Position numbers and translations under genes: made by a program. 64,000 bases of DNA from Oscillospiraceae bacterium. Its GTDB lineage: Bacteria > Bacillota > Clostridia > Oscillospirales > Acutalibacteraceae. The notes below the pieces were generated by a model. The model searched no databases, had not been told where the DNA came from, and saw only the letters and a list, made by a program, of their open reading frames with translations. Shown piece after piece: positions 2,930-63,999 of the stretch (positions are counted from its first letter, which is position 1; each line of letters begins with the position of its first letter). The stretch lies in NCBI GenBank assembly GCA_015065425.1, contig SVQH01000008.1, positions 1 to 64,000 on the forward strand. The letters run 5' to 3'.

Positions 2930-4231
2930 ATGAAAAAAGTATTATCATTGATTTTAAGCTTAATTATGGTTATTATGGCTGTTATGCCCGTGTTCGCGGC
3001 AAATCCTGTTGCGGCAACAGAAAAGTGGCTCTCCGATTGGGATGAAAGAGCTGAAAGGTCAGGTAAAATATGGCAGAGTCCCGGTGAAAACGAGAATGAC
3101 AGAGTTTTTACATGGTTATCCTCTGACACGGGAAACACTTTTACTTATTCAAACGGTGTAAGCAAGTTTACTCTTACTGCCGAGAGCACAATAACTGTTT
3201 ACGGAGTTGTAAATAATATCAAGCTTTCAGGTCTTAATGACGGAGAGTATAAATACTCCTATACTGCCGATGGTGTTACTTATTCGGGAAAGAAGTTTTC
3301 AATAGACACAAAAACGGAAAGCTTTACTGCTTTGTTCTGTTCTGACCCGCAGCTTGGTCGTTCAGGTGACAATAGCCTTAAGGCTGTGCAGGATGATACT
3401 TACGGCTGGGAAAGAACTCTTGAAGGTGCCATGAAAAACGGTGCGGAGCTCATACTTTGCGGCGGTGACCAGGTAAATGACGGATTTTCTTCTCTTCAGT
3501 ATAATGCATTTTTCTCACCTGATACACTTTCTGCTCTTCCTCTTGCACCCACAGCAGGAAATCACGATTTTTACTCAGCAAGATTCAGCACATATTTTGG
3601 TGATACGGGTGTAGATATGATAGGTAATGATTATTATTTTTCATTCGGTGATGCTCTGTTTATCGTGCTTGACTCCAATAATATTCTTGCCCCCATACAT
3701 AAAAACACAATATCTCAGGCTGTAAATGCATATCCTGATGCACGCTGGAGAGTTATGATGCTTCATCACGGTGCGTACTCAGCAGGTGCAGATGAGTTTA
3801 CAAATAAGATATGTACTTCAATGCTCAAAGGATATTTTGATGATTTTGGCATTGACCTTGTTCTCAGCGGTCATAATCATTTTTATTCGAGAACATATCC
3901 CATATATAACGGTCAGATTTCTTCCTTAGGAACCGTATTTTTTGAAGCAGGTTCAGCCTCGGGCGGCAAATGTTCATCCTATGACACATCAGGCAGTGAA
4001 TATATAGTGCACAGCGTGGACCTCAGCGAGGCATCCTATTCACTGCTGACATTTGAGGAAGACCATATCGTTATCAATTCCTATCTTACCGATTCCGGTG
4101 AAATATTCGACTCGTTTACCGTAGTCAATACAGAAAAGGCTGAAGAAATTCCTCATTTCGGAATTTTTGCAAAGCTTATTGCATTCTTTGAAAAAATTCT
4201 TTCATACATTCCCGTTCCATATAAAAAGTAA
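2930..4231 (+). CDS. secreted metallophosphoesterase, purple acid phosphatase-like
   Basis: The protein has 433 residues with a clear signal peptide (residues 1-24, ...AVMPVFAA). Residues about 30-130 form an Fn3-like beta domain, as in purple acid phosphatases. The calcineurin-type dimetal core follows: D139 in FCSDPQ, D180 in GGDQVNDG, N211-H212 in GNHD, HH at 279-280, and H315/H317 in GHNH. All ligands needed for a two-metal phosphoesterase are present. It acts outside the membrane, probably hydrolysing phosphomonoesters or diesters. The last 25 residues form a Phe/Ile/Lys amphipathic tail (FAKLIAFFEKILSYI), shared in style with three other secreted proteins here. It stands alone, with its own promoter and a strong terminator. 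The substrate is unknown. Confidence 0.88.
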   Translation: MKKVLSLILSLIMVIMAVMPVFAANPVAATEKWLSDWDERAERSGKIWQSPGENENDRVFTWLSSDTGNTFTYSNGVSKFTLTAESTITVYGVVNNIKLSGLNDGEYKYSYTADGVTYSGKKFSIDTKTESFTALFCSDPQLGRSGDNSLKAVQDDTYGWERTLEGAMKNGAELILCGGDQVNDGFSSLQYNAFFSPDTLSALPLAPTAGNHDFYSARFSTYFGDTGVDMIGNDYYFSFGDALFIVLDSNNILAPIHKNTISQAVNAYPDARWRVMMLHHGAYSAGADEFTNKICTSMLKGYFDDFGIDLVLSGHNHFYSRTYPIYNGQISSLGTVFFEAGSASGGKCSSYDTSGSEYIVHSVDLSEASYSLLTFEEDHIVINSYLTDSGEIFDSFTVVNTEKAEEIPHFGIFAKLIAFFEKILSYIPVPYKK

Positions 4232-4246
4232 TAACAATAATTGAAT

Positions 4247-4293
4247 AAAAACAGGCTCAGTTTTACCGTGAAGGCAAAACGAGCCTGTTTTTT
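4247..4293 (+). terminator. Rho-independent terminator after metallophosphoesterase
   Basis: AAAACAGGCTC pairs with GAGCCTGTTTT, and an inner GTTTT/AAAAC extends the stem. It ends in a T6 run. The neighbouring gene converges, so it can serve both strands. Confidence 0.9.
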
Positions 4294-4317
4294 GAATTTA
4301 AATTATAATTTGTATGT

Positions 4318-5280
4318 TTACCAGTTTTTTATTATTTCGGGGCAATTGAAAATTTCATCCAGTTTTTTTATGAACGGCATAATATCAGCCGCACCGCCGA
4401 TTTTATGATCAAAAACAAGGGTTATGGGTAACACTTTTTTTGTTCCGAGCTCAAGAGTTCCGTCTTCTTTTTTGTAAACATATTCTTTGTCCTTTACTCT
4501 TCCCGTAGCAAAAAGAAATACCTGAGGGTACAAAGGGGGAATATAGGTGATGTTTACATCAAGGTTATCGTAAAGAGTTCCCCAGTTTGTATAACATACT
4601 GTTCCTTCGGTGAAATCATCAATTTTCAGACCGTCATAAGGAGCTTTATGGGATGATTTTTTATGTTTTTTCTTTTTGAAAAGCTTTGAAAACTTTGCTA
4701 TTTTCCCTTTTCCGAAATATACTGCCATCACTTGTGACAGTGAGTTCAGGGCTTTACCCTTCAGGGCAAGTCCGAGAATTCTCTGACCGCCTACATTGAA
4801 CATTATTTTTTTCAGATTTGTATTTCCGAGTTTTCTTTTTACTTCCTCTGTGAGTATTGCTGTTTCACGCAGATTTTTGTCTTCAAGTCCTTTAATTTTT
4901 ACCTGAAATGTCTGAGAGTCGGGAAGACATACAGCCATTGCAACATCAATATGTTTTTTTATAATGATTCTTCCGCTGGTTTTGCGGTGATTGTATTCAT
5001 AATGAGCATTGAGTCTCGGGGCTGCCTTTAATCCTTCGACCAGAATTTTTATCATGAGAGTGTTGAAAGTCAGTTTATAATCCACACTTTCTTTCAGCTC
5101 TTTGAATTTTTCGAGAAGTGCCGTAACATCAGCCTCATAGCTGCAGGCTGTTCCCGGAATTTCTTTTTGTGAATTTACAAGCACATTGGATGTTATTCTG
5201 TCTCTTATAGACATATATTCTACTATATCGCCTTGTTCGGGAGCTAATGTGGATGTCTTTATATATTCCTTAAAACTCAT
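4318..5280 (-). CDS. stand-alone 2-oxoacid dehydrogenase E2-type acyltransferase domain
   Basis: The protein has 320 residues and matches only the catalytic domain of dihydrolipoamide acyltransferases. The C-terminal signature is LPITLVFDHKIGGAADIMPF, with the catalytic-type His at 292. There is no lipoyl domain and no E1-binding domain, and no E1, E3 or lipoate genes are adjacent. The usual DHRxxDG motif reads DHKIGG, so the Asp that assists the His is replaced by Gly. A basic insert (KLFKKKKHKKSSHK, about residue 200) interrupts the domain. It may act as a CoA-dependent acyltransferase on a small molecule, like chloramphenicol acetyltransferase, or be catalytically impaired. It is divergently transcribed from csaA. 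Confidence 0.75.
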   Translation of the reverse strand: MSFKEYIKTSTLAPEQGDIVEYMSIRDRITSNVLVNSQKEIPGTACSYEADVTALLEKFKELKESVDYKLTFNTLMIKILVEGLKAAPRLNAHYEYNHRKTSGRIIIKKHIDVAMAVCLPDSQTFQVKIKGLEDKNLRETAILTEEVKRKLGNTNLKKIMFNVGGQRILGLALKGKALNSLSQVMAVYFGKGKIAKFSKLFKKKKHKKSSHKAPYDGLKIDDFTEGTVCYTNWGTLYDNLDVNITYIPPLYPQVFLFATGRVKDKEYVYKKEDGTLELGTKKVLPITLVFDHKIGGAADIMPFIKKLDEIFNCPEIIKNW

Positions 5281-5353
5281 GTTTTCCCTCTTTTCCCTTT
5301 TGTTCTTTTTATGCTATCATAAATACAGAAAGAATTCCACTGTTTTATTCTTC

Positions 5354-5382
5354 TTGTATCATTTTTGGAATTGTGCTATTAT
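5354..5382 (+). promoter_or_regulatory. sigma-A-type promoter of csaA
   Basis: TTGTAT (5354-5359), a 17-bp spacer and TATTAT (5377-5382) lie 33 bp before the csaA start. Confidence 0.5.
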
Positions 5383-5415
5383 TATATCAGAATTATTTCC
5401 TATGGAGGGTATAAT

Positions 5416-5745
5416 ATGGCTGTTTTTGAGGATTTTCTTAAGCTTGATATAAGGGTAGGTACTGTGTTAAGTGCAGAAGTTTTTGAAAAGGCTAAAAAGC
5501 CTGCGTATAAACTTACTGTGGATATGGGAGAAGAAATCGGAGTCAGACGGTCTTCCGCACAGATAACACAGAGATATACCCCCGATGAACTTATCGGTAA
5601 ACAGGTTCTTGCAGTTGTAAACTTCCCTCCAAGACAGATAGCCGATATGATGTCAGAGATATTGGTACTCGGAACTTATTCCGAGGGCGGTGTTGTTCTT
5701 ATTACTACCGACAAAGAAGTTAAAAACGGTGATAAACTGGGATGA
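5416..5745 (+). CDS. csaA: CsaA-like tRNA-binding-domain protein
   Basis: The 109-residue protein is a single OB-fold tRNA-binding domain, close to B. subtilis CsaA in length and sequence (LDIRVGTVLSAEVFEKAKKPAYKL, then SSAQITQRYTPDELIGKQVLAVVNFPPRQI). CsaA is described as an export-related chaperone, and the same domain binds tRNA. The start is at 5416, where GGAGGG precedes ATG by 6 nt; the longer frame from 5365 overlaps the promoter. It is followed after 10 nt by the HD hydrolase gene, probably in one transcript. Confidence 0.88.
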   Translation: MAVFEDFLKLDIRVGTVLSAEVFEKAKKPAYKLTVDMGEEIGVRRSSAQITQRYTPDELIGKQVLAVVNFPPRQIADMMSEILVLGTYSEGGVVLITTDKEVKNGDKLG

Positions 5746-5755
5746 GGAGAATTAT

Positions 5756-6322
5756 ATGAAACCTGAAGAAGTATTGAGTGTTCTGGGTATTGCCGAAAAG
5801 CTTAAATGCATCACACGTCACAGTGATACTTCAAGCGGCAGGCGGGAGAGTGTGGCAGAACACAGCTGGCGGCTTTCACTTTTTGCAATGCTTATGGCGG
5901 ATGAGTTTCCCGAAGCTGATATAAATAAAGTCATAAAAATGTGCCTTATACATGACTTAGGTGAGGCATTTACAGGTGATATTGCAACATTTTGCAAAAC
6001 TGAAGCGGACTGCGAAAAAGAAAAACGGCTTTTTATCGGCTGGATAGAAAGCCTTCCCGATACGGCAAGTCGGGAGTTTATTTCTCTTTACGATGAGATG
6101 GAAAAATGTGAGACAGAAGAAGCAAAGCTTTATAAAGCCCTTGATAAGCTTGAAGCTGTGATACAGCATAATGAAAGCGACATAAAGACATGGCTGCCTC
6201 TTGAATATGACCTGCAACTTACTTACGGCAGTGCTGAAACAGAGTTTTCTGACTATCTTAAGCGTTTTAAGTCACATATTGATGATTGGACTAAGAATAA
6301 GATAGCAACACAAGGTAAATAA
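5756..6322 (+). CDS. HD-domain nucleotidase-like hydrolase (YfbR/HDDC2 type)
   Basis: The protein has 188 residues. The metal-binding pattern of small HD hydrolases is complete: H22 near RHSD, H36 in VAEHSWR, H66-D67 in LIHDLGEAFTGDI, and D130 in ALDKLEAV. Family members of this length (YfbR, HDDC2) are 5'-deoxynucleotidases that dephosphorylate deoxynucleoside monophosphates. The start at 5756 follows GGAGA; the upstream frame overlaps the end of csaA. Co-transcription with csaA is likely. Confidence 0.82.
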   Translation: MKPEEVLSVLGIAEKLKCITRHSDTSSGRRESVAEHSWRLSLFAMLMADEFPEADINKVIKMCLIHDLGEAFTGDIATFCKTEADCEKEKRLFIGWIESLPDTASREFISLYDEMEKCETEEAKLYKALDKLEAVIQHNESDIKTWLPLEYDLQLTYGSAETEFSDYLKRFKSHIDDWTKNKIATQGK

Positions 6323-6325
6323 AAC

Positions 6326-6354
6326 TTGTGCATTGCACTGTTTTGTGATATTAT
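6326..6354 (+). promoter_or_regulatory. possible promoter of cytidylyltransferase-glycosyltransferase pair
   Basis: TTGTGC, a 17-bp spacer and TATTAT are followed by GGGGGTGA just before the next start. The -35 match is only 4/6. Confidence 0.4.
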
Positions 6355-6384
6355 ATATAAATAAATCATTATGGGGGTGAAAAG

Positions 6385-7089
6385 ATGGTAGTTGCGGCAA
6401 TTCTTGCCGGGGGAAAAGGCAGCAGAATGGGTTCAGATTTGCCCAAACAGTTTCTTGAAACAGGAGGGATTCCTGTTATTATAAGAAGCATAAATGCGTT
6501 TCTTTCGTCCTCTGAAGTGGATAATGTAATAATAAGTGTCTGTGCTGATTATTATGATTACACAAAAGAGCTTGTTGGGCAATTTGTTAAAACTGATAAA
6601 GAGATATTTATTATACACGGCGGCAGTACAAGAAGCGATACTCTTTTCGGTATAGTTTCGTTTATGAAAGAAAAAAATATTCTTGACGGAAGTATAGTTC
6701 TGACTCATGATGCAGTAAGACCATTTATTAATGAGAGGATAATTTCTGAGAATATAGAGGCTGCAAAAAAATACGGTGCCTGCAACACCTGTATACCCGC
6801 AGTGGATACCATGCTTATCAGTGATGACGGAGAATTTATTTCGTCTGTGCCTGACAGGAATCATCTTTTCCATGCACAGACCCCTCAGAGTTTTGATGCG
6901 GCTAAGCTTTACAAACTGATGTCTGAAATGTCAGAGGATGTCTTTAATATGCTTACCGACGGCTGCTCGGTATTTACTTACAGCGGTGAGCCTGTTTATC
7001 TTGTAAGGGGAGAGAGTTATAATATAAAAATTACTTTTCCCGATGATATAAAAAGAGCAGAAAGCATAATTAAAGAGTATTATAACTGA
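6385..7089 (+). CDS. TarI/IspD-family cytidylyltransferase
   Basis: The 234-residue protein has the nucleotide-binding signature ILAGGKGSRMG (6-16), PKQF (20-23), HGGSTRSDT (78-86) and THDAVRPF (107-114). Two members of this family look alike: IspD (MEP pathway, CDP-methylerythritol) and TarI (CDP-ribitol for teichoic acid-type polymers). The sequence favours TarI: YGACNTCIPAVDTM, FHAQTPQSFD, LTDGCSVF in place of the IspD TDDAS motif, and the ending RGESYNIKITFPDDIKRAE. The gene is followed after 12 nt by a glycosyltransferase rather than ispF, which also points to a cell-wall or capsule polymer. IspD or a bifunctional role cannot be excluded. Confidence 0.75.
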   Translation: MVVAAILAGGKGSRMGSDLPKQFLETGGIPVIIRSINAFLSSSEVDNVIISVCADYYDYTKELVGQFVKTDKEIFIIHGGSTRSDTLFGIVSFMKEKNILDGSIVLTHDAVRPFINERIISENIEAAKKYGACNTCIPAVDTMLISDDGEFISSVPDRNHLFHAQTPQSFDAAKLYKLMSEMSEDVFNMLTDGCSVFTYSGEPVYLVRGESYNIKITFPDDIKRAESIIKEYYN

Positions 7090-7101
7090 ACGGAGAAAAA
7101 T

Positions 7102-8463: not shown

Positions 8464-8471
8464 TTGAGTAT

Positions 8472-8509
8472 AAAAAAGCGTATCGGTTGAAATTTCCGAT
8501 ACGCTTTTT
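8472..8509. terminator. bidirectional terminator between glycosyltransferase gene and lexA
   Basis: A 14-bp perfect stem (AAAAAGCGTATCGG / CCGATACGCTTTTT) with a 9-nt loop. The A and T tails serve both convergent genes. Confidence 0.92.
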
Positions 8510-8530
8510 GAATTTCTGCCGTATTCCTTA

Positions 8531-9121: not shown

Positions 9122-9152
9122 ATTTTGCCTCCGCTTATAATATTTCAACATT

Positions 9153-9191: not shown

Positions 9192-9260
9192 ATATTTTTT
9201 TTGAAAATTTCGGAATATTTTTTTCTTTTGGGGACAAAATCAATTTAGGAGGTAATGAAT

Positions 9261-18459: not shown

Positions 18460-18529
18460 ACCTGCTTATTGTCCCGAGACCGTTTGGCATTTGCTCTGAT
18501 GCCGGACGGTGTCGGAATGATTGACAGGT
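18460..18529 (+). promoter_or_regulatory. long imperfect hairpin in the 5' leader of the giant gene
   Basis: A 31-bp stem in perfect register (18460-18490 with 18499-18529, 8-nt loop) has 27 paired positions, several of them G-U, and only four mismatches (478/511, 473/516, 467/522, 465/524). It lies between the promoter and the ribosome binding site. The G-U pairs argue for an RNA structure. No T run follows, so it is not an intrinsic terminator. Confidence 0.6.
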
Positions 18530-18553
18530 GAGATTAAGGAAAGGAAGATTTTT

Positions 18554-21500
18554 ATGAAAATCGCAAAGAAATCCCTGAGCATGTTTTTGTCACTTCTTAT
18601 GATATTTACAGCTTGCTCAGTGGGCTTCAACGGTGCTTTTATTTCTGCTGCGGCAGCAACAGCAGACGAAGTAAAAACACTTGTTGCTGAAGCTGTCAAC
18701 GTCGCTGATATCGGCGGTGCCACAGGCGACAAATGGTCTTATACCGTTACAAGCAAAGAGACCTATGTTGTTTTAGAGGCAGCACAGGCAATTTATGACT
18801 ATGCGGTAGAAGTTCTCGGTGCAAGAAGCATAAATACCGAAGAGCTTTATGCGGAGGTTATAGGTAATCTCGGCTTTGCCGCCGGCACAGAGGGTGCCCA
18901 GCTGGTGAAGAATATTATTTCTCCTTCAGGTTCCTCAGTTTATAATTCTTCAAATACCACTTACAAAACAACCGGTACAACGACACAGGCAAAACGGTAT
19001 ACTGCCGGTCAAGCTATTGATGCCGGACAGTACACTGCACCCTCAGGGCTTAATGCTGTTGCTAAATCAGCAACGATAACCGTGGATGAAAAAGCATTTT
19101 TGTTGTCTTATGATTCTATTGAAGCTTTCCCCGAAAACATTGTTTCTTCAGTAAGCTTCAGCTTCAATAATACAACAAAGGTAACCGCAACGGCTAATGC
19201 TGATACAGTTTATACCCCCGCGAGCGGTTCAGGTACAAATAAGAAGCCTGAATCATATTCAACTTCTTATACTGTATATCTTTTCCATGTTATTGATTCA
19301 AAATCAACATCATCTTCATCAACTCCGATAGCTTCAAATTTTGAGGCTTTTGTCGCAGCTTTTACAGATGAAGCACTCGGACAGACAAGAGCAGATTTGC
19401 TTAAAAAGACAGAAGCAGAGCTTGAAAGTGAATACGATACGGCTTATGCGGCTTTCAATTCCGTTTATAATGCATACGGAAAAGAATTTATCGATCATTT
19501 CTACGGTGACGGAACTGCCGATAAGATAATTGCTTATATGGCTGACCTTACCTTTGCTGAAAGAGTAGTCAGAGCTATTCCTTCTGTTAAGGCTCTTTAT
19601 GAGGCTGTTAACACAACCTATGATGAGACTGACTATGATGCAATGTATTCTCTTTATGTAAGCATTGATGCTCTCCAGCCTGTTGCGGAAGAGCTCACTT
19701 CAGAAGAGCTTCAGTATATAGTAGATGGATATAGTCTTACAGGTCTTACTGTTGAAAGTGTAGAAGCTTTCAAGGCAGAGCTTTATCTTGATATGGAAAC
19801 TGTTAAGCTGGAAGAAATAAAGGCTTCTGTTGATGCTGATATTGAATATTATCTTCCTCTCGTTCAGGATAATCTTAATTTTAATGATATATCGGATGAT
19901 GAGCTTGCAACTCTTCCCGGAAAATTCCAGGCTTATGCAGAAGCTGTTGCAAACTACAGCTATGCAGCTCAGAACAGAGTATTCTCCGAAGGTTATTCAG
20001 CTTATGTTGCAGAAATTCTTTCTCTTATTAATGAAAAGCTTGCAACTCGTGAAGCAAATGCTATATATCTTCCTATCTATGATTACTTTTCATTAATATT
20101 CACCAATTTTGCTGATTGGGCAAACGGTGATTTTGCTTGGGAAGCAGAAGATGAAAACGGTGAAACAATAATCGTCGGCAGATATGAGGAAGACCTTAAA
20201 AAGCTTCCGGAAATTGATGCTGTTTATAATGAAATAGTTAATAAATACGGCAAAGATATTGCTGATGCTATCGTCAAGGTAACCTACGAAGGCGAAGAAA
20301 TGAGCCTTAAAGAAGCTGTAGAGAAGTATCTCGATGTTGTTCTTGATGCAGCTAAGACCCGTGTTGAAGAAACACTTACAGCAGTAAACACTTATGCTGA
20401 TGCTATCCCCGAAACAGAAGCTTATGATGTAAACTTCTCAAATGTTGTTGAACTCGGCACAGCTCTTCTTAAGTACAGCGAAGTTCTTTACACTTATATG
20501 GATGGTAAGGGTGTTATCGACAGCGAATATGATGCTATTGCAGCAAAGGTAAATGCAATCAAGGAAGCTTATGATGCATTTATCGCAACCGGCGGTCTCG
20601 GTAACTTTGTTAAGGTTGAATATGACGAAAACGGCATTTATACCGTTCGTTATGCAGGTATGGAAAATGACCTTGCAAGAGAAGGCGAAGAAGACAACTA
20701 TGAAGTAACAGATGAAAAGATTGAAGCTATCATAAATAAGCTTGACGGCTTTATCACTTCTGAAGAATTCTGTTCTCTCGTAGGTCTTGCTGACGAAGAA
20801 GGCAATCCCTATACAAGCCTTAATGAAGCTGTAAACGGACTTATCGGCGGACTTTTCACTGATGATATAATCAATACAATTATCGGTGCTCTTTTCCCGA
20901 TGATAACAAATCTTCTTGAAACTGAAATTCCCGGCTTGATTGCAGGTCTTGGCGGCGACGAGCCAATGACACCCACTGATACCAATGCATCAGCAGCTAT
21001 TGACTTCGCTACATTAGATCTTGTTGATGGTCTTTCAGGTAAACTTGATATTTATCTTGATAAAGCCACTTATAATGGAACTCAGCTTCAGAGAGGTTTT
21101 GCAGATGTATTTGGTGGTATTGGTGTTAATCTTTATCCCAAATATCTCGCTCAGAGTCTTGCTAACTCCGGTGTTCTTGCTACGGATTCTGATTTTTATA
21201 AAGCAATGATTGCTGCAAATGATAATTGGGTAGCACTTGCTGTTGATCCCACAGCAGAAGAACCTACCTATGAATTCGATTATGCTTGGGGAATAACAGA
21301 TTATGAGTCTTTTACAACAGTTCTCGGTGCAATCCTTGATGCTCTTAAGCCTCTTCTCGGTGCACTCTTAGGCAATCAGTCATATAATTCAGGTAATATT
21401 TCAAATGTAGGTTATGCAAAGGGTAATGCTTCTCTTAGCATTCTTAATGCCGGAGCTACTGCACAAGCAGGTATTAATCTTACGGTTCATCCTATAAATG

Positions 21501-24500
21501 TATTTGATAAGGTTTGGATTCCCATTATGGAAGCTCTTAATCTCACAGAAGGCGAAGGAGCTTATGCATTAAGCCAGATGCCCGCTGATCCCAGCGGTAA
21601 AACTGCTGTAAAGGCATTGCTTGATCCTCTTTTTGCTCTTCTTGATAAGATTTTAGCCGCTCCCGTAAATGAGGTTGTTTCACTTCTTCCCTCTTTGGCG
21701 TATGCTCTTTCAATGGATAAAGTGCAGGGTCTTCTTAATGACCTTTCAATATACCTCAGTCTGGATCTTGTTCTTGAAAATATAGAGCTTTCATTCTCCG
21801 GTCTTGCTGCGTTGTTGAATCCTCTTGCAAGCCTTATTACCGGAGGTCTTGAGGGTACTCCTATAAATGTTTTAACAGCCGATGAGCCTATGATTGCTCT
21901 CGGTGACGAGCTTGATCTTAAGGATATGCTCGGTGTTGACTACAGAAACCTCAACGAGCTTATCGGTATGCTTGCATCCGATATATATCTTCCTCCCATT
22001 TCTCAGACAGATCTTATCTTCCTTGCTGATGTTGATACAAATGCTCCCTCTTACAGATCATCAGGCAGCCGTATTAAGTTCACTGCAGACAAGGCAGACG
22101 TTCTTTACTTCCTTCTTGACTACCTTGCAGGTGCACTTAATGAAGATCTCCTTAATTCCATAATCGGAATGATTCAGGGTGAACCCGAAGAAGGCGAAGA
22201 AGCTGAACCTGTTGAAATTCCCGCATTTGTATTTGACCTTCTCGGTAATGTGAACGGCAATACATTGGGACTTATCACAGTTCTTTCCGAAATCTTTGTT
22301 CCTCAGACTTATTCCATGACAGAAATTGACTGGTATGAGTCAAGTGTAAGTGATGCTCCCTATAATGCTGTTTATCTCAAGTACGGTACAGACTGGACAA
22401 GAGAAGATGCTGTGGCACTTGTTGAAAATCTTGATTCTCTTCTCAAGACCATTCTTGACCTTGCAGGAACAGATCTTGATATAAACACATATCTTCCCGA
22501 ACTTATCAACGGTGCACTTGAAGGTGCATTCACAAACAGTAACCTTACAACCGTTATTTCAGGTATCGCATCTCTCGGTAAGACCGAAATGGATGCAATG
22601 CTTGCAGATATTCTCGCTGATGTGCTCGGTGCTGACCTCGCAGAAATCTACAATGCATTCGGCTATCTCTTCGTAACAGAAGAAGAAATGGCAGAAGAAG
22701 GCTTTGTAGCTCCTCTTACTCCTGCAGATGCAGGCTATGTAAACAACACAGGAGTTGAAGCTGTTGTTGATGCAGAAGGCAACATCACTTGGACATTCGG
22801 CGGCGAAGCTATGACAGACGGCGACAGAACAATGTTCTTCAACATCCTCTTCGCAGGTCTCTCACCCTTTATGCCCACACTCGAAAAGCTTCTTACTGGC
22901 GGCAGCCTTGAAGCTCTCGGAATTCTTGAAATTCCTTGCTATGACGGATATGCTTACACATTCGCACAGCTTCTTGAAGTTCTCGGTGTTGAAGATGTTC
23001 TTTCTCAGGCAGAATTTGAAGCAATTTGTGCAAATGAAGGTATTGAAGCTGCTCTTATTAGTGTAATAGATGCAGTATTTTCAAGACTTGATGAAATTCT
23101 CACAGGCAGTGTTATTCTCAACCTTGCTGAGATTCTTCCCAACCTTCTCTATTTCATCGAAAGCAACGGACTTTCTGCATTCGTAAGAAATCTTCTTAAG
23201 CCCGTACTCGTTCTCATTGACAGCTTAAGACCTCTTGTTGATGTTGATATTAATGCAGTTCTTACTTACTTTATTTCCGAGCTTGCTAACGGCAAAGAAC
23301 TTGCACTTGATGTTGATGTGATCCTTAATATGATCTTCAAGGGTGAAATTCCCACTCCCGAAGATCCCGAAAACTACAAGACAGTGGCTATCAATATAAC
23401 AGATCTCAGACTTTCAAGTCTTCTTAAGATTGCTGATGCATATCTCGGAACCAACCTTTACAACAGTCCCATTGTAAATCCCGGACTTGATACAATGTTC
23501 GCATTTACAGAAAGCTATGTTTCCGCAACAGGTGAGACTGCTTACAGAACAAACATCGAAATACCCGATGCTCTTACAGTTCTTATTTCTGCACTTCTTG
23601 AGTCTCTTATATCTCCCGTAGATGAAAACACAACAAATGCAGATGTTATTTTCGCACTTATCGAAGATGAAAACATTGTAAATATTATCAATGCTGTTAT
23701 CTCTCTTATCGGCGGATCTGAAATTACAGTCGATAAGTACCGGACTCCCAACTGGGCATATATGTATGACGGTGAAGATGCACTCCGGCAGCTTATAGAT
23801 GCTGAAGGTGAGTTCCCCGTAAGAACAGGCAATGCTTTTGATATTTATACTCAGTATCAGAATAACTGGAGTAAAGAAACAGCAGAATATATCAACAGCG
23901 TTCTTGATATGTTTGTAAAGAACATTGTTGATATAGCAAAGGGCGACGGTTCAACTCTCGGTACAATTCTTGACGATGCTATAGTAAACGGCATTTATAC
24001 AGACAGTATTCTCAATTCCATAATTGAAGCCGTTGTCGGTCTTATTGTTGATTACGAAGACATAATTGTTGCTGCAGGCGGTCTTCTTGATGCCCAAGGA
24101 CTTCTTGATTGGATCGACTGGTGTGAAATCACAGAAAACGAAGACGGCACAAGAACAGTTAAGTGCGTAAAGGATTGGGGAATGGATTCCGCAGAGACTA
24201 ACGAAGCAAAGAAAGAAGCATTCGTTGAAGGCTTTGTTGAAACTCTCAAGCCCGCTTACAGACTTCTTGCATGGCTTCTTTTCGGTGAAGATATCACATT
24301 CTTCGACGGAGTAACTAAGGAAGCACTTATCACAATCACAGGCGGCGAAGGCTATAAGTATGCATTTGTTCCGCTTCTTGAAGCACTTGGTGCAACAATG
24401 AATTATGAAGGCACTGATACAGGCATTAAGCCCGTTGAAGCTTTCTATGAAGACGGCGTTCTCAATATGGAACAGGCTGTAAGAGATATTTTCTCTGCAG

Positions 24501-26608
24501 TTGTAGGTGTTCTTTCCGCAATCTGCGGTGACCTTCAGAATGTAACAGAAGGTACAGGAACTCTTTCAGCTATGCTTGAAATCGTTCCCAATGTATTCTA
24601 CTTCATTAATGCAGGCGGACTTAAGGCTGTTGTAAATAACCTCCTTCTTCCCGTAACTGCAGTAACCGATAAGCTTGGTGCTCTCGGTCTTGAAGTTGAT
24701 TTTGCAACACTTATCCCCGATATCAATATCACAAGTCTTGACTTCCCCGAAGTATTCAAGATTCTTGAAAATCTTCTTCCTCTCTACTTCCCGCAGTACA
24801 CTCAGGACTTCCTTTCCACCTTCTATATGGGTAAAGCTGAAGCTTACACATCTGCAAACGGTCAGACAGCATATAAGATGGTATTTACAGAAGATGAAAC
24901 AAGAGCAGATTTCATCACAGTTGTAATTTCCTTCGTAGCTGATGCATTTGCTGACTCCAGAAATGAAGCAACGATCAAGGGCTGGTTCGGTGCAGATAAT
25001 GAAGGTATCTATGACGTGCTTATGGCATATTTCACAGATAAGGCTGTAAAGGTACCTATGGCTGAATTTGAATGGGCTCTCACAGATAAAGCTGACACAG
25101 GTGAAGTTCTTTCTCCCGTAACTATGGACAGCATCTATTCTTATGTATACGGTGAACTCTATACGAGAGAAATGGGTGAATACATCGAAAAGTGGCTTCC
25201 CGATTTTGTTGACACCATGATAGTTCTCCTTGGTATTCAGGATGCTGAAGGTGAAAACTATACGGGACTTGAAGATGTCCTTGATACTCTTGTCGGAACA
25301 TCAGTTTATAAGCCTGAACTTGTTCAGCAAATTGCTGATGCCGTAAACGGACTTATCGGTGACCTTAAAGAAGGTATCGGAGAAGAGTTCTATGCACAGG
25401 TAACAACGATTCTGAAGAATGCTCTCGGTGTTGATATTTCTGTTATTGAAACCTTCACTGTGGCTGAATTTGCAGAAGGAGACCGTGAGGCATTTGTTAA
25501 TGAGCTTCTCAGACTTCTTGCTCCCGTTTATCCCGTTCTTTCATGGCTTCTTACTGATGACAGTCTTTCATTCTTCCACACAGCAGACGGAACAGGTGCT
25601 GACAGAATTATTATTCGCGGTGCAGAAGGTTATAAGTACGGTATAATTCCGATACTTGAAGCACTCGGCTGTGAAGATGTTCTTACTTATGAAGAATATA
25701 AAGCTGATGCAACTACTCCCGAAGCACTTCTCAGAAATATTATCGAGCCTATACTCAACAAGGTCGATGTGCTCCTCGCTGATCCCGTAAATGAAGTTGT
25801 CGAACTTCTTCCCGGCGTAATTTACTTCCTTAACTCCAACGGTCTTGATACTGCAGTAAGAAATGTTCTCAACGCAGTATTCAGCCTCCTTGAAACAATA
25901 GAGCCTATTGCAGGTGAAATTGATCTCTTTGAGGTTATCGGCTTTGACTTCAAGCTTAACATTGAAGACATTCTCGGTGAGCTTCTTGAAGGCGTAGAAG
26001 AAGACACAGGTTTCAGACTTAAGGAAATCGCAATGGAAGCTGTAAATGAACTGACAGTCGGTGAAATAGTTTCCTTCACTTCAAAGAATGGTCTTACAGC
26101 ATACACAATGAAGTATGCAACAGGCGGCGACAGTGCGGATATGATATCTGTTATTCTTCGTCTTGTTCTTGCATTTGTATCTGAACCCGAAAATGTTGTC
26201 GCTCTTGAAGCAATGCTTTACGACAACCTCAGCGGTGAAGGATATACCTTCCTTTGTTCACTTCTTGAAAACTTCTCTCAGATGGCAGCACATGAGGGTG
26301 GTATGGAACAGGTACTCTATACAGTTTACCAGATATTCTATGCAGCAAATGTTGCAGCACACAAGACAAACGACTGGCTTGACAATTTCAACGGAGACTT
26401 CTCCTTCCTTAACCAGTTGTTTGCTACCAGTGACCTTCCCTTCCTCAAAGACCTGGGTGCTTCACTCGGCGAGCTTCTTGACAGGGTAGGCGACGGAATC
26501 TTTGACAGTGACGGTCTTGCATCAGAAGGACTTATCAAGTTCTTTACAAATATCATAGAATTCTTCAAAAAGATTGTTGAATTCTTCAAATCACTGTTCG
26601 TATATTAA
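18554..26608 (+). CDS. giant secreted repeat protein, 2684 residues, unknown function
   Basis: The protein has a signal peptide (MKIAKKSLSMFLSLLMIFTA... to about residue 33). A Ser/Thr-rich beta-looking part follows, then an acidic helical part up to about nt 20700. The C-terminal 60% consists of four divergent tandem units of roughly 425-480 residues. Landmarks recurring in the units are a YKYxxxPLLEALG box (nt about 21511, 22949, 24352, 25630), a helix pair around NEVVELLPGVIYFLNSNGL with a downstream LEPxVDxD-like segment, and a YTREMGEYIEKWLPDFVDT-like segment. The protein is strongly acidic. There is no LPXTG motif, SLH domain or dockerin. The last residues form a Phe/Ile/Lys amphipathic tail (FFTNIIEFFKKIVEFF). 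I start it at the ATG at 18554 after AAGGAAAGGAAG; a TTG start at 18521 lies in the leader hairpin. No enzyme motif is recognised. A surface structural or adhesive role is a guess. Confidence 0.85.
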   Translation: MKIAKKSLSMFLSLLMIFTACSVGFNGAFISAAAATADEVKTLVAEAVNVADIGGATGDKWSYTVTSKETYVVLEAAQAIYDYAVEVLGARSINTEELYAEVIGNLGFAAGTEGAQLVKNIISPSGSSVYNSSNTTYKTTGTTTQAKRYTAGQAIDAGQYTAPSGLNAVAKSATITVDEKAFLLSYDSIEAFPENIVSSVSFSFNNTTKVTATANADTVYTPASGSGTNKKPESYSTSYTVYLFHVIDSKSTSSSSTPIASNFEAFVAAFTDEALGQTRADLLKKTEAELESEYDTAYAAFNSVYNAYGKEFIDHFYGDGTADKIIAYMADLTFAERVVRAIPSVKALYEAVNTTYDETDYDAMYSLYVSIDALQPVAEELTSEELQYIVDGYSLTGLTVESVEAFKAELYLDMETVKLEEIKASVDADIEYYLPLVQDNLNFNDISDDELATLPGKFQAYAEAVANYSYAAQNRVFSEGYSAYVAEILSLINEKLATREANAIYLPIYDYFSLIFTNFADWANGDFAWEAEDENGETIIVGRYEEDLKKLPEIDAVYNEIVNKYGKDIADAIVKVTYEGEEMSLKEAVEKYLDVVLDAAKTRVEETLTAVNTYADAIPETEAYDVNFSNVVELGTALLKYSEVLYTYMDGKGVIDSEYDAIAAKVNAIKEAYDAFIATGGLGNFVKVEYDENGIYTVRYAGMENDLAREGEEDNYEVTDEKIEAIINKLDGFITSEEFCSLVGLADEEGNPYTSLNEAVNGLIGGLFTDDIINTIIGALFPMITNLLETEIPGLIAGLGGDEPMTPTDTNASAAIDFATLDLVDGLSGKLDIYLDKATYNGTQLQRGFADVFGGIGVNLYPKYLAQSLANSGVLATDSDFYKAMIAANDNWVALAVDPTAEEPTYEFDYAWGITDYESFTTVLGAILDALKPLLGALLGNQSYNSGNISNVGYAKGNASLSILNAGATAQAGINLTVHPINVFDKVWIPIMEALNLTEGEGAYALSQMPADPSGKTAVKALLDPLFALLDKILAAPVNEVVSLLPSLAYALSMDKVQGLLNDLSIYLSLDLVLENIELSFSGLAALLNPLASLITGGLEGTPINVLTADEPMIALGDELDLKDMLGVDYRNLNELIGMLASDIYLPPISQTDLIFLADVDTNAPSYRSSGSRIKFTADKADVLYFLLDYLAGALNEDLLNSIIGMIQGEPEEGEEAEPVEIPAFVFDLLGNVNGNTLGLITVLSEIFVPQTYSMTEIDWYESSVSDAPYNAVYLKYGTDWTREDAVALVENLDSLLKTILDLAGTDLDINTYLPELINGALEGAFTNSNLTTVISGIASLGKTEMDAMLADILADVLGADLAEIYNAFGYLFVTEEEMAEEGFVAPLTPADAGYVNNTGVEAVVDAEGNITWTFGGEAMTDGDRTMFFNILFAGLSPFMPTLEKLLTGGSLEALGILEIPCYDGYAYTFAQLLEVLGVEDVLSQAEFEAICANEGIEAALISVIDAVFSRLDEILTGSVILNLAEILPNLLYFIESNGLSAFVRNLLKPVLVLIDSLRPLVDVDINAVLTYFISELANGKELALDVDVILNMIFKGEIPTPEDPENYKTVAINITDLRLSSLLKIADAYLGTNLYNSPIVNPGLDTMFAFTESYVSATGETAYRTNIEIPDALTVLISALLESLISPVDENTTNADVIFALIEDENIVNIINAVISLIGGSEITVDKYRTPNWAYMYDGEDALRQLIDAEGEFPVRTGNAFDIYTQYQNNWSKETAEYINSVLDMFVKNIVDIAKGDGSTLGTILDDAIVNGIYTDSILNSIIEAVVGLIVDYEDIIVAAGGLLDAQGLLDWIDWCEITENEDGTRTVKCVKDWGMDSAETNEAKKEAFVEGFVETLKPAYRLLAWLLFGEDITFFDGVTKEALITITGGEGYKYAFVPLLEALGATMNYEGTDTGIKPVEAFYEDGVLNMEQAVRDIFSAVVGVLSAICGDLQNVTEGTGTLSAMLEIVPNVFYFINAGGLKAVVNNLLLPVTAVTDKLGALGLEVDFATLIPDINITSLDFPEVFKILENLLPLYFPQYTQDFLSTFYMGKAEAYTSANGQTAYKMVFTEDETRADFITVVISFVADAFADSRNEATIKGWFGADNEGIYDVLMAYFTDKAVKVPMAEFEWALTDKADTGEVLSPVTMDSIYSYVYGELYTREMGEYIEKWLPDFVDTMIVLLGIQDAEGENYTGLEDVLDTLVGTSVYKPELVQQIADAVNGLIGDLKEGIGEEFYAQVTTILKNALGVDISVIETFTVAEFAEGDREAFVNELLRLLAPVYPVLSWLLTDDSLSFFHTADGTGADRIIIRGAEGYKYGIIPILEALGCEDVLTYEEYKADATTPEALLRNIIEPILNKVDVLLADPVNEVVELLPGVIYFLNSNGLDTAVRNVLNAVFSLLETIEPIAGEIDLFEVIGFDFKLNIEDILGELLEGVEEDTGFRLKEIAMEAVNELTVGEIVSFTSKNGLTAYTMKYATGGDSADMISVILRLVLAFVSEPENVVALEAMLYDNLSGEGYTFLCSLLENFSQMAAHEGGMEQVLYTVYQIFYAANVAAHKTNDWLDNFNGDFSFLNQLFATSDLPFLKDLGASLGELLDRVGDGIFDSDGLASEGLIKFFTNIIEFFKKIVEFFKSLFVY
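21430..26400 (+). repeat. four long degenerate tandem units within the giant gene
   Basis: Units begin at about 21511, 22949, 24352 and 25630, at spacings of 1438, 1403 and 1278 bp. They share protein motifs (LLPxxxYFLxSNGL, YKYxxxPxLEALG), but the DNA has diverged, which points to old duplications rather than recent expansion. Confidence 0.65.
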
Positions 26609-52107: not shown

Positions 52108-53454
52108 TTAGATAGCTCTGATGATCTCCTGAATAAGAACATAAAGCAATGAGCTGGTGAAAGCTTTGATGAACTTTTCGATGATGCTCTTGTTCTGTTC
52201 ACTGAATTCAAGAGGTTCTTCACCGTTGTCTATTGTGAGAGCCTGTGTAACGGTGATGCCGCCTTCGCTGATGATTTCCGCACGAACATAAAGGAAATCC
52301 TTTGCACCGTCGATTGTGTCAAGGTCAAGTGTGAACTCACCGTCTGTCATTGAACCCTTATAAATTACCTTGCCATCTGCAATCCACTGAATAGTTTCTG
52401 CATCAGTTGCTTCTACCGTAATCTTATGACCGTCAACTGCAACCTTTGTGAACATGGGATATGCAAGGTCTGTATTGCAAGCATCAATGGGCTTATCGGG
52501 ACCTATTTCAAAATCACTTGCCCTGAGGGATCTTGTTGTGGAGAAGAAAGCTCCGTTTGTCATAGTTTCCTTGATGTGGTCAACATCGTTTTCTTCCATC
52601 ATAAATGTCATAAAGGAAGTGTCAATATTGTTTTCATCGTGTGCATCGGTGTTAGCATAGCCAATGATTGTTTTTCCGTAGGGAAGAGCGTACATAAGCA
52701 TATTGTCCCAAAGAACTCTGTCATAGCCTGTAGGACCGTTATCCTCATTGAACACCTCGATGCCGTAGCAGGAGTCATATTTAAGGATTATGTCTGTGAG
52801 GAATGCAATGTTTTCAGGATCGTTTACTGCATCGGGATTTGAGTTTGAATCAAGCCAGTCACCGGGGTGATTAATGTGGGAAATGCCGCCGTTTTTGTCA
52901 GTAAACTTAACAGCTGCTTCAAAAGCATTTTCACCGCCGCGGAAGCCGGTGCCAACACCTTCGGGAAGGAAGTAGCCGTTAACATGGCACTTTGTGAGAG
53001 TAAGATCGTTGAGCTCGTTAGCACCGACAACACAGGTCATTTTTTTGCCTCTGTTGTTATATGTGCCTGTAATCATACCTTCGTATTCTTCATCGGTAAG
53101 AGTTGTCTGCTTGTTTCCGAGGATGAACTGATAATTGTAAAGGATGGGATATTTGGGTTTTCTGTTCCATTCAACACCTGTTACACCGTGGTCAGCGTTA
53201 GCAAGGAAGTCGAAGCCCTTATCATAATATGCTTTGACCATTGTAGCAAGATCAACATCTGCGTCAGAATAGGTTGTGTGGGAATGAAGAGTGCCCTTGT
53301 ATGCACCCCAAGCACCGTCACCGTCCCAGATAACCTCCTCGTAGGGTGAAACGATAACATAGTCATTTTCTGCGGCAGATACTGCAAAAATACCGACGGG
53401 GAAAATCATAAGAGCAGTTAATAAAAAGCAGAGTAATTTTTTTGTGTTTTTCAT
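52108..53454 (-). CDS. secreted PHP-domain metal hydrolase
   Basis: The 448-residue protein has a signal peptide (1-28, ...GIFAVSAA). The PHP metal site is visible: H57/H59 (LHSHTTYSDAD), D88-H89 (ADHG), a later His in INHPGDW and D-x-H in NTDAHDE. PHP enzymes are usually intracellular phosphoesterases, so an exported one is less common and may act on extracellular phosphate esters. The C-terminal third is a beta domain with a bacterial Ig-like pattern. It ends in an amphipathic tail (IIEKFIKAFTSSLLYVL). AAGGAGA lies 11 nt before the start. Confidence 0.83.
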   Translation of the reverse strand: MKNTKKLLCFLLTALMIFPVGIFAVSAAENDYVIVSPYEEVIWDGDGAWGAYKGTLHSHTTYSDADVDLATMVKAYYDKGFDFLANADHGVTGVEWNRKPKYPILYNYQFILGNKQTTLTDEEYEGMITGTYNNRGKKMTCVVGANELNDLTLTKCHVNGYFLPEGVGTGFRGGENAFEAAVKFTDKNGGISHINHPGDWLDSNSNPDAVNDPENIAFLTDIILKYDSCYGIEVFNEDNGPTGYDRVLWDNMLMYALPYGKTIIGYANTDAHDENNIDTSFMTFMMEENDVDHIKETMTNGAFFSTTRSLRASDFEIGPDKPIDACNTDLAYPMFTKVAVDGHKITVEATDAETIQWIADGKVIYKGSMTDGEFTLDLDTIDGAKDFLYVRAEIISEGGITVTQALTIDNGEEPLEFSEQNKSIIEKFIKAFTSSLLYVLIQEIIRAI

Positions 53455-61618: not shown

Positions 61619-61652
61619 TTTTTCAGACAGAAATCTATATCCGTTGAATGAT

Positions 61653-61850
61653 TTACTTCATGCCGTTTTCATAAGCTTCAATCATCTTTTTTACCATCTG
61701 ACCGCCGACAGAACCTGCCTGACGGGATGTGAGATCACCGTTGTAGCCCTGCTTGAGGTTTACACCTACTTCTGAAGCAGCTTCCATCTTGAACTTGTTG
61801 AGAGCTTCTCTTGCTTCGGGTACAAGACTTGAATTACTACCCTTCATCAT
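61653..61850 (-). CDS. alpha/beta-type small acid-soluble spore protein
   Basis: The 65-residue protein has the two conserved SASP regions: ALNKFKMEAASEVGVNLKQG, including the germination-protease cleavage context (KMEAASE), and GDLTSRQAGSVGGQMVKKMI. It coats spore DNA. AAAGGAGTG precedes the start (a second ATG follows at once). A minus-strand CATAATA (61901-61895) could be a sigma-G -10 box, but the matching -35 is weak. Confidence 0.95.
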   Translation of the reverse strand: MMKGSNSSLVPEAREALNKFKMEAASEVGVNLKQGYNGDLTSRQAGSVGGQMVKKMIEAYENGMK

Positions 61851-62034
61851 GTTTCACTCCTTTTGCAAAATGTTTTGTTTTTGCTTTGCATTAGTATTAT
61901 GCACACAAAGAACCGATATATATAAGGAAGTTTCTGTAAATGTTCCTTGCATATACAGATTCTTATGTGCTGTGAATATTATGTGAAAATGATATAAGAT
62001 AATTACCGGAAAATATTGAAAAAATATTGAAAAA

Positions 62035-63999
62035 TTACCTGAAAAGATAATTAAGGAATTTTCTTATTTCCGTTATCGTGCGGATAAATGCATCGCAGAT
62101 GCTTTTGAAAAATGAGTAATCTTTTTCAGAGATTGTGCTGTCACTGCCTTTGGCTTCGGAATCAAATACGAATGCAAATCTTCCTCCGGGAGCGGCATCG
62201 CCGTTTATGTAGAAATCCATTGCATCTTCGCCCTGATGATTGTCAGACCACTTGAAATTGAATTTGACTTCATCTCCTGTAAGTCCGAGGGCAGTTCTCG
62301 GAACCTCAATCTGAAGTACATTGTCATATATGCTGATATCCACTTTGCATATTTCCGAAAATTCAAGCCCGCCGAGACATTTTTCAAGAGTGGCTTTTCC
62401 GTCCTTGGGGGAGTTTCTGTTTATCAGATATTCAAATCCCTCCCAGTTTGTTTCTGTACCTTCGGTATCTGTGTCAATAAGCAGTCTCATCCAGCTGCTG
62501 TCGTCGCTTGATGTAAGCTTGTCTGCAGTTTCAACATAAAAATATATGTTTTTACTGTCATAAGCTATTTTTGCCTTGACAATATCATTTCTGAAGGAAT
62601 CGTTTTTGTAATAATAACCCTGCCAGCCGCTACTGTCTCTGTCTTCATTTCCCTTATAATGATTATATTCAGGATATACGCTGTCCCACTGTGAAAGATC
62701 TCCGTTTATATTAATAGTTTTTTCGGCTTCGGTTGCGGGTAAGGAATTTGTACCTTTGAAACGGCGTACATTTTCCACAAGCTGATAATAGTAGTGGTCC
62801 TTGAGAATACCCTTTGAAGGCTCGATATCGCGGGAGTATTCGGGGCTGAACTGATCCGGGAAGGCATTCTCTGTGCCGTTCCATTCATCAAATCTTCCTG
62901 CTATCCATTCATTGAAGCCTGTAATAAAGATAAATTCGGGGTCGGCTTCGAGGGCATAGTTCCACTGCTGTTGGAAATTAAGACCGTAGAGAAGGGCATT
63001 TTCGGTATTCTTGTCAACGGTTATCTCTTTTCCTCCGTATGTGTATGTATATGAAAAATAACCATCCGTAAAGCTTCTGCCCTGAACCGTACCAACGGGA
63101 CTGTTCATTGCGGTAAGACCGTATTCATTTGCATTCTGTGCAACGGATACACATATCTGTTCCACATTCCCGAAAATGTCTTTGCCGAATTTTGCCTGAG
63201 GATAATCAGAACACCATCCCCATACTTCTTTAATTTTTGAAAAATCATCTGTGAAATATGTTGACTCATTTTTTCTGAATGTGAAGAAATTATAAATTTC
63301 ACGGTCCTTTGCCACTGTCAGATCAAGTGCTTTTATGTCCGCCATTACAAGAGGTTTTCCGTCCCATCTGAACCACAGGTCTTCATATCTGCCTGCAGCA
63401 TAAATGTCGTCATAAATCTTATAAAGCTGATTTTTTATCATGGTTTTATCTGAGAAATTGAGCATGAAGGTTATCTGCGGAGTATTTACGCCTTCATTTC
63501 TTGCTTTGCTCCACACACGAAGAAGTGCTTCATAGCCCTCAGGGAAGACTATATCCTGATTAGTTGCATCAAAAATTACCGTATCAATATCCGCATCAGC
63601 AAGAAGCTCTGCGTGTTTTCTGAGGACATATTCATCTGTGTTTGTGTAAAAGCCGTATAAAGGCTCGTCCCAGAAATAAGGTCTGCCCGAATATGTGCCG
63701 TTCCATGCAGGGTGCTCCCAATCATTTACGGCTTCCGGGTATTTATCAAGTACACTGCCTGTCGTGACAGGTGCATGGTCATTTATCCACGGATAATGCC
63801 ATATCCAGTAAAACATTCCCACAAAGCGGTCATCTCTTTTGTTGCCTGTTTCTTTATTAAGTGAAAGTGTTCTGCCGAGTCCGTCAACAGCAGCCCATGA
63901 GGAAGGTGAGATTTCCTGTGCAGCAGCCGCTGAAGATAATACGGGCAAAACTCCCGAAAGAATACAGAGTGTTAAAACTGCTGAAATAAGTTTTTTCAT
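62035..63999 (-). CDS. secreted GH99/GH71-like glycosidase with CBM9-like domain
   Basis: The 654-residue protein has a signal peptide (1-25, ...LPVLSSAAAA). The TIM-barrel part (about 50-440) resembles endo-alpha-mannanase or alpha-glucanase families: MFYWIWHYPW, a DTVIFDATNQ strand, FMLNFSDKTMIKNQLYKIYD, WFRWDGKPLVMAD, and ITGFNEWIAGRFDEW with a candidate catalytic Glu. Residues about 455-620 match a CBM9/DOMON-like sugar-binding domain (KTININGDLSQWDSVYP; KIAYDSKNIYFYVETADK). It ends in an amphipathic tail (FFKSICDAFIRTITEI). The ATG is at the window edge, so the ribosome binding site is not visible. Family assignment is tentative. Confidence 0.75.
   Translation of the reverse strand: MKKLISAVLTLCILSGVLPVLSSAAAAQEISPSSWAAVDGLGRTLSLNKETGNKRDDRFVGMFYWIWHYPWINDHAPVTTGSVLDKYPEAVNDWEHPAWNGTYSGRPYFWDEPLYGFYTNTDEYVLRKHAELLADADIDTVIFDATNQDIVFPEGYEALLRVWSKARNEGVNTPQITFMLNFSDKTMIKNQLYKIYDDIYAAGRYEDLWFRWDGKPLVMADIKALDLTVAKDREIYNFFTFRKNESTYFTDDFSKIKEVWGWCSDYPQAKFGKDIFGNVEQICVSVAQNANEYGLTAMNSPVGTVQGRSFTDGYFSYTYTYGGKEITVDKNTENALLYGLNFQQQWNYALEADPEFIFITGFNEWIAGRFDEWNGTENAFPDQFSPEYSRDIEPSKGILKDHYYYQLVENVRRFKGTNSLPATEAEKTININGDLSQWDSVYPEYNHYKGNEDRDSSGWQGYYYKNDSFRNDIVKAKIAYDSKNIYFYVETADKLTSSDDSSWMRLLIDTDTEGTETNWEGFEYLINRNSPKDGKATLEKCLGGLEFSEICKVDISIYDNVLQIEVPRTALGLTGDEVKFNFKWSDNHQGEDAMDFYINGDAAPGGRFAFVFDSEAKGSDSTISEKDYSFFKSICDAFIRTITEIRKFLNYLFR

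Follow-up and report, generated by a model that had tools for sequence, protein, structure and literature searches.

Surface proteins determine how gut bacteria retain their enzymes and fibre-degrading complexes at the cell surface, and in these uncultured Clostridia many secreted enzymes and repeat proteins appear unattached, as they show no known anchor. The stretch of DNA analyzed here, 64,000 nucleotides in length and called the window below, raises the question of what the C-terminal ends of such proteins do. Many unrelated exported proteins of a group of uncultured gut bacteria, including four encoded in the window, share one type of tail, a short and greasy helix.

All four tails were present at the genes where the first-pass annotation had placed them, and a simple rule bore out the signal peptides that it assigned to these proteins. 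The metallophosphoesterase (433 aa, 2930..4231, + strand; PF00149, E 4e-12) ends in the tail FGIFAKLIAFFEKILSYIPVPYKK (4157..4228, + strand), which scored 8.6 with the matrix described below and whose hydrophobic positions are conserved in three orthologues. The giant secreted protein, a 2695-aa ORF (18521..26608, + strand) ending in IKFFTNIIEFFKKIVEFFKSLFVY, had a signal peptide by the rule when counted from residue 12, and its start is likely the internal Met 12, at about 18554; Pfam returned nothing for it at E ≤ 0.001, and its tail GLIKFFTNIIEFFKKIVEFFKSLFVY (26528..26605, + strand) had a matrix score of 11.5, a value equalled in 0 of 100 column permutations. The 448-aa protein on the – strand (52108..53454) had been called a PHP protein, and this label held in part: NCBIfam NF038032 supported a CehA/McbA-like assignment at E 3.5e-13, but at 49.7 bits, below the cut-off of 80. 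Its tail NKSIIEKFIKAFTSSLLYVLIQEIIRAI (52111..52194, – strand) was detected by the amphipathic rule and had a matrix score of –8.8. The fourth protein, of 654 residues (62035..63999, – strand), had been labeled GH99-like, for which we found no confirmation, with no Pfam match at E ≤ 0.001 (best, DUF7893 at E 0.98) and none in a PDB sequence search at E ≤ 0.1; its tail is DYSFFKSICDAFIRTITEIRKFLNYLFR (62038..62121, – strand; moment 0.69, matrix score –4.1). As annotated, none of the four proteins contained LPXTG in its last 60 residues or an SLH or dockerin (PF00404) domain by Pfam at E ≤ 0.001, and when lipoboxes were considered all four were of the signal peptidase I type by rule.

The helical moment exceeded that of a tail's own shuffled versions in three of the four window tails (p ≤ 0.044, 0.002, and 0.014, the last for the 654-aa protein) and did not do so in the PHP tail (p ≤ 0.13). 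Aligned with each other, the window tails matched poorly, with two invariant columns, and the case therefore rests on a sample of the source genome (799 kb, 29% of the genome, GC 40%), in which tails were enriched even without the window. Using an amphipathic rule that was stricter than a loose hydrophobicity score and was set after the sample had been seen, we found C-terminal tails in 20 of 56 signal-peptide proteins, 11 of 290 cytoplasmic-type proteins, and 0 of 12 lipoproteins. With the window excluded, the counts were 17/49 versus 11/266 (p = 8e-9). The remaining 36 of the 56 proteins lacked a tail by the rule, in a signal-peptide class that contains false calls. Genus mates gave 5/20 signal-peptide versus 2/160 cytoplasmic-type proteins. 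Outside the genus, the rule found 0 of 42, a count that comes from 16 genomes, each without a framed-module match (see below) where listed, and that is not informative on the 11 other genera positive for this module. One of these 42 proteins (L189:3126) ends in KRTWWEKLADFFNNIFS, which looks tail-like by eye and was not caught by the rule.

Most of the plain tails are amphipathic. Among 18 picked by hand, the moment exceeded that of shuffled sequences at p < 0.05 in 14 and was not significant in 4, net charge was positive in 15, and polar residues recur every few positions, leaving no uninterrupted membrane span.

A second form of the tail is found in other proteins, again at the very C-terminal end, where the same helix lies inside a C-x3-CH-x25-CxCG-x2-H module with seven invariant positions, mostly Cys or His, beside the variable helix. 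To compare the two forms, we used a matrix of a 17-column core that was trained solely on Cys-framed cores. This matrix ranked plain tails of signal-peptide proteins first, and for each of the top six no more than 1 in 100 column permutations scored as high; a rank test over the whole classes was not significant (p 0.49), the difference being confined to the upper tail of scores. Because a matrix built from Cys-framed cores finds plain tails, plain and framed tails share a pattern. With the flanks of the Cys-framed tails included, a matrix of 25 columns gave no separation (p 0.16). Counting matches to either the matrix or the Cys motif, with Cys-framed proteins included and the window excluded, we obtained 11/49 signal-peptide versus 3/266 cytoplasmic-type proteins, which supports the co-occurrence of tail and signal peptide that the first-pass annotation had proposed to check with a profile. 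One of the three cytoplasmic-type matches is Cys-framed and truncated by the edge of its stretch; its longer ORF likewise begins without a signal peptide.

The framed module has 12 copies in the source genome and was found in 23 of 26 genomes of the genus. A profile of 32 sequences detected it in at least 38 of 398 genomes of the family and in at least 12 of 135 genera, with one positive genus resting on E 9.7e-4; confinement to a single genus, considered initially, is thus wrong. In the order sample it was found in at least 1 of 394 genomes, the source genome alone, and two further matches (L077 and L078, E 6.6e-4 and 9.4e-4) were rejected as marginal and not tail-like on inspection. No convincing relative emerged from Pfam, NCBIfam, or the PDB. 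At E ≤ 1, the 32 members hit two Pfam families, with one member each (best, Zn_ribbon_Nudix at E 0.012), and four NCBIfam families, again with one member each, the best being an unrelated archaeosortase model that matched just 1 of the 32 framed tails at E 0.0039. A literature search of open-licence papers found such tails nowhere described. Ten of the 12 copies in the source genome were inspected: the rule assigns a signal peptide to six, inspection by eye adds one (C40, 2269 aa), and in three (C19:101951, C24, and C6) the ORF start lacks one. C24 and C6 appear to be frame-broken. Among 37 loci with the framed pattern, the N-terminus fell outside the locus in 30, and four of the other seven proteins were of the signal-peptide class. 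The Cys and His residues of the module probably bind metal, which would hold the helix in place at its two ends or bring two tails together as a pair.

Neither this framed form nor a cohesin context had figured in the first-pass annotation. In the source genome, a 182-aa protein consists of a signal peptide, a cohesin, and a tail, and an 881-aa protein consists of a signal peptide, a sub-threshold cohesin, LRRs, and a framed tail; the cohesin at L200:10735-11283 scored 42.6 bits, over the Pfam cut-off of 24.1, and that at L200:1556-4201 scored 23.6 bits, just below it. Genus mates yielded 28 cohesin ORFs, of which the rule classed 11 as lipoproteins and inspection by eye about five more; among the 23 whose stop codon lay within the locus, none ended in a tail, so the cohesin-tail arrangement is seen in the source genome only. 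Tails were also found in 0 of 6 dockerin-ended proteins (flagged by pattern among 66 signal-peptide proteins), an absence with a chance of 0.10 that is not significant alone.

We think it somewhat probable, judging from sequence, that the tail retains Sec-exported proteins on the cell as a C-terminal anchor, one that would sit peripherally on the outside of the cytoplasmic membrane. After export and cleavage of the signal peptide, a linker would leave a helix of about 17–25 residues free; rich in Phe, Ile, and Leu, with Lys and Arg on a narrow polar face, this helix would rest in the membrane's outer leaflet and tether to the cell not only enzymes and repeat proteins but also two or more cohesin proteins. 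The tail would then be one option beside a lipobox, a sortase signal, or a terminal dockerin, and the framed version would hold the same helix between C-x3-CH and CxCG-x2-H. Membrane binding, metal binding, and retention are what we infer from these features, and a retention role, one of those suggested by the first-pass annotation, receives only indirect support, from the placement of the tail in cohesin proteins, the character of the helix, and the lack of overlap with terminal dockerins. More tentatively, these tails may constitute a lineage-specific system of surface display with a C-terminal module of its own, built from an amphipathic membrane helix in the clasp of a Cys/His frame that binds metal, or else acted upon by a processing step. 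Such a system would serve many unrelated proteins per genome, including cohesin scaffoldins, beside attachment by sortase, lipid, or dockerin.

One alternative is chance or composition, namely that hydrophobic C-termini of an A+T-rich genome were selected by eye. The sample GC would allow this, and cytoplasmic-type proteins gave matches too, 14/290 at a loose score of at least 10 and 11/290 by the final rule; the loose score was dropped as a detector because it also matches membrane proteins and some cytoplasmic ends. We nevertheless regard chance as very improbable, since tails are enriched by protein class, the loose score was reached by 19 of 66 C-termini of signal-peptide proteins versus 0.9% of 660 internal segments of the same proteins, two genus mates with 56–58% GC also have such tails, and the order of the matrix columns matters. 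The tails might instead associate, among themselves or with a partner protein, to build surface complexes, with the Cys/His frame binding metal between subunits. Amphipathic helices do form bundles, and Cys/His clusters at both ends of the helix could bridge subunits; the tail-bearing enzymes, LRR/repeat proteins, and cohesin proteins, however, share no partner domain. Orthologous metallophosphoesterases also conserve hydrophobicity more than identity, with tail identity of 0.42–0.68 versus 0.70–0.73 for the body and 0.91–1.00 of hydrophobic positions conserved. This pattern fits contact with a lipid surface more readily than a specific interface, and we consider assembly decidedly unlikely. 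Among 20 metallophosphoesterase loci inspected by eye, one without a signal peptide (L010) has a hydrophobic C-terminal stretch, and several with hydrophobic N-termini lack a tail.

A dedicated enzyme or receptor might also read the tail, perhaps via the Cys/His frame, and attach the protein, by linkage or docking, to the cell wall or to some surface layer, in the manner of sortase-type systems. The invariant frame residues look recognized or chemically used, the spread of the framed module within the family sample is limited, and the genome has three sortase matches. Yet the plain tail has neither a fixed motif nor LPXTG, and with a polar residue every few positions it does not make a membrane span. 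We consider recognition of this kind unlikely and favor a retention anchor. If the tail anchors, these secreted enzymes and repeat proteins would have to be counted as attached to the cell, an anchor would be supplied for some cohesin proteins that lack one, and a short transferable tag would become testable in a laboratory strain.

PEP-CTERM is a C-terminal sorting signal. Sortase LPXTG and PEP-CTERM-like signals resemble the tail in being short, C-terminal, and shared by many different proteins that one lineage exports; the tail differs from them in lacking both a processing motif and an uninterrupted membrane span. A precedent lies in D,D-carboxypeptidases of the PBP5/DacA type, which, in the portion of PMC2909392 that bears on this point, have a signal peptide and a C-terminal amphipathic helix expected at the outer face of the cytoplasmic membrane. 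The likeness is an exported protein with a C-terminal amphipathic helix of about 18–25 residues; the difference is that this portion concerns one enzyme family, whereas here unrelated proteins carry the helix and a Cys/His-framed module exists. The three window proteins other than the metallophosphoesterase, which belongs to PF00149, had no S11 match at E ≤ 0.001, and the closest S11 carboxypeptidase of the source genome has a C-terminal helix whose moment (0.37) was not above that of shuffled sequences (p ≤ 0.174). As the window proteins are not S11, the tail would work like a PBP5 anchor without being assigned to that family. The third comparison is with anchoring scaffoldins of cellulosomes, such as ScaE of Ruminococcus flavefaciens, which combine a signal peptide, a cohesin, and a C-terminal anchor; the anchors named in the relevant excerpts are SLH, LPxTG, LysM, C-terminal TM helices, and Cu-amine-oxidase-like domains (PMC12484212, PMC11557425). 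Compared with the scaffoldins in those excerpts, the cohesin proteins of the source genome likewise combine a signal peptide, a cohesin that in one protein is sub-threshold, and a C-terminal element, and they differ in ending with an amphipathic or Cys/His-framed tail that would serve as the anchor.

Amphipathic C-terminal tails, Phe/Ile/Leu/Lys-rich helices of 20–25 residues, had been claimed for four window proteins by the first-pass annotation and were found on all four: a metallophosphoesterase (2930–4231, +), a giant protein (18521–26608, +), a PHP protein (52108–53454, –), and a 654-residue protein (62035–63999, –). The signal peptides claimed for these proteins were likewise present in each by a simple rule. 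Pfam bore out the metallophosphoesterase identity; for the PHP protein, NCBIfam gave the appropriate CehA/McbA match but below threshold; and domain and sequence-match searches did not support the GH99 label of the 654-residue protein. The gene adjoining the PHP gene (50713–52065, –) encodes a tailless signal-peptide protein with dockerin-like repeats (17.1 bits; Pfam cut-off 22.9), and ~33–48 kb (+) holds an ordinary cluster of ribosomal-protein genes, where L2, SecY, and RpoA were matched along with a methionine aminopeptidase-like protein.

The tail was concentrated on exported proteins. Our sample of the 2.79-Mb, 59-contig draft genome (window, C49:1–64000) comprised 40 stretches plus the window (799 kb, 29%). 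ORFs, picked longest first with a codon filter and classified by simple rules rather than a trained predictor, included 56 signal peptidase I-type (SPI), 12 lipoprotein, 146 membrane-class, and 290 cytoplasmic-type proteins. By a criterion fixed after the sample was seen (an amphipathic 18-mer near the C-terminus, a Cys motif, or a matrix score >0), tails occurred in 20/56 SPI, 0/12 lipoprotein, 10/146 membrane-class, and 11/290 cytoplasmic-type proteins, with the giant protein tallied as membrane-class despite its signal peptide. With the window excluded, the counts were 17/49 SPI versus 11/266 cytoplasmic-type (p = 8e-9). Three genus mates gave 5/20 versus 2/160 (p = 1.9e-4), and 16 genomes outside the genus gave 0/42 versus 6/341.

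Metallophosphoesterases share a fold and differ at their ends. PF00149 matches 40 times in the genome. Among 20 such loci judged by eye, six (L002, L004, L008, L009, L015, and L019) had a signal peptide that looked cleavable together with a C-terminal stretch of hydrophobic or amphipathic character, a combination absent from most of the others. L010 was an exception, with a hydrophobic C-terminal stretch and no signal peptide, and several loci (e.g., L001, L003, and L014) had a hydrophobic N-terminus yet no tail. The nearest named relatives of the window enzyme (67–70% identity) come from Oscillospiraceae bacterium SIG574 and Clostridia bacterium RGIG6358 and RGIG3116 (sheep and goat rectum according to MAG record titles). 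Between this enzyme and three orthologues, tail identity (0.42–0.68) was lower than body identity (0.70–0.73) in every pair, and hydrophobic tail positions were kept at 0.91–1.00. More distant relatives (genus mates L264–L277; L050:6972–8390) carry in place of the tail a longer conserved module of ~45 residues, starting near FFRKL (FFRKL...GTIYAVFNN...DLKEDGY...FF).

Besides plain tails, further secreted proteins in the sample ended in a tight Cys/His motif, C-x3-CH-x25-CxCG-x2-H. One example with papain-like, lectin-like, and LRR domains (L030:4251–8873) ends in CSHICHKSGFMGLIWKILRFFWKLFKMSPVCDCGVAHY. A five-sequence profile found 12 framed copies in this genome (E≤0.001) and matched 23/26 genus genomes, including 12/12 of ≥90% completeness and ≤5% contamination. 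A 32-sequence profile matched at least 38/398 genomes and at least 12/135 genera in a family sample and at least 1/394 genomes in an order sample, this genome alone among the matches listed. In a search confined to the last 70 ORF residues, 37/43 loci contained the pattern, with 0–10 residues trailing the final His; a thirty-eighth (L100) had it at its end with longer spacing. C1, C5, H6, C32, C34, G35, and H38 were invariant across 32 aligned sequences. At E≤1, these 32 sequences gave single-member matches only in Pfam (best 0.012, Zn_ribbon_Nudix) and NCBIfam (best 0.0039, archaeosortase ArtE), and a PDB profile search gave no match; the module appears to be without a name in these libraries. 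Similar ends occur on gut Clostridia proteins. Two framed ORFs (C24:37710 and C6:37429) are flanked by pieces in other frames and are either decayed genes or draft-assembly errors.

Judged by sequence, plain and framed tails have a pattern in common. When C-termini lacking the Cys motif were scored with a matrix of 17 columns built from 28 framed cores, the highest values went to L026:2346 (20.3), the giant protein (11.5), the window metallophosphoesterase (8.6), L033:15547 (8.4), L037:88 (6.7), and L056:13073 (5.2), six C-termini matched by at most 1/100 column permutations. Scores exceeded zero for 8/52 SPI, 0/12 lipoprotein, 5/146 membrane-class, and 2/289 cytoplasmic-type proteins. The PHP (–8.8) and 654-residue (–4.1) tails scored below zero; their kinship depends on the general tail rule. 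Among 18 hand-picked plain tails, maximal helical moments were 0.42–0.98 and exceeded shuffles in 14 (p<0.05; exceptions, PHP, L023, L058, and G608 tails); net charge was positive in 15, zero in L002, and negative in L058 and L059.

Cohesin proteins offer a further comparison. The genome has 3 sortase and 13 cohesin matches; one of its cohesin proteins (L059:5066–5638) is a lipoprotein. In L200 (C55:11001–23913), the genes at 1556–11283 form a cluster for proteins with cohesins, dockerins, and LRRs or other repeats, resembling a cellulosome-type assembly on a small scale that is built on non-enzymatic repeat proteins. Its products are signal peptide–cohesin–plain tail (182 residues), dockerin, LRR, and repeats (1515 residues), signal peptide–three cohesins–dockerin (482 residues), a lipoprotein, and signal peptide–cohesin (slightly below cut-off)–LRR–framed tail (881 residues). 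Cohesins matched in 25/26 genus genomes. Of 28 genus-mate cohesin ORFs, the rule classed 11 as lipoproteins and inspection by eye added about five; one had a PATGD-type sortase-like end, and two ended in dockerin-like repeats. The 23 whose stop codon lies within the locus all lacked a terminal tail, and the cohesin–tail arrangement was confined to this genome among the ORFs examined. In this genome, the tail thus takes the position that a membrane anchor holds in other cohesin proteins. None of six flagged dockerin-ended SPI proteins had a tail (chance 0.10). One S11 carboxypeptidase has a modest C-terminal helix; another D-Ala-D-Ala carboxypeptidase (S11; L152:1378–2499, C37) has a dockerin-like end (PF00404, 19.9 bits; cut-off 22.9), unusual on a cell-wall enzyme.

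Our best reading is a peripheral anchor, in which the helix would hold the exported protein at the outer leaflet. The framed form, with two Cys/His clusters spaced ~25 residues, suggests a metal, and the module may instead be read by a dedicated enzyme or receptor. We found no description of such tails in open-licence literature: the main text of a review of monoderm surface display contains neither "amphipathic" nor "amphiphilic" (PMC5817068), and the consulted sections of a survey of cellulosome bacteria list other anchors and lack the words "amphipathic" and "lipoprotein" (PMC11557425). ScaE, as described in PMC12484212, resembles the 182-residue cohesin protein in architecture but has LPXTG. 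The peripheral-anchor reading follows the manner of E. coli PBP5, which has a C-terminal helix as its peripheral membrane anchor and, according to PMC2909392, becomes soluble and poorly localised when its C-terminal 18 residues are removed. The mode of anchoring would be a variation on an already known kind of anchor.
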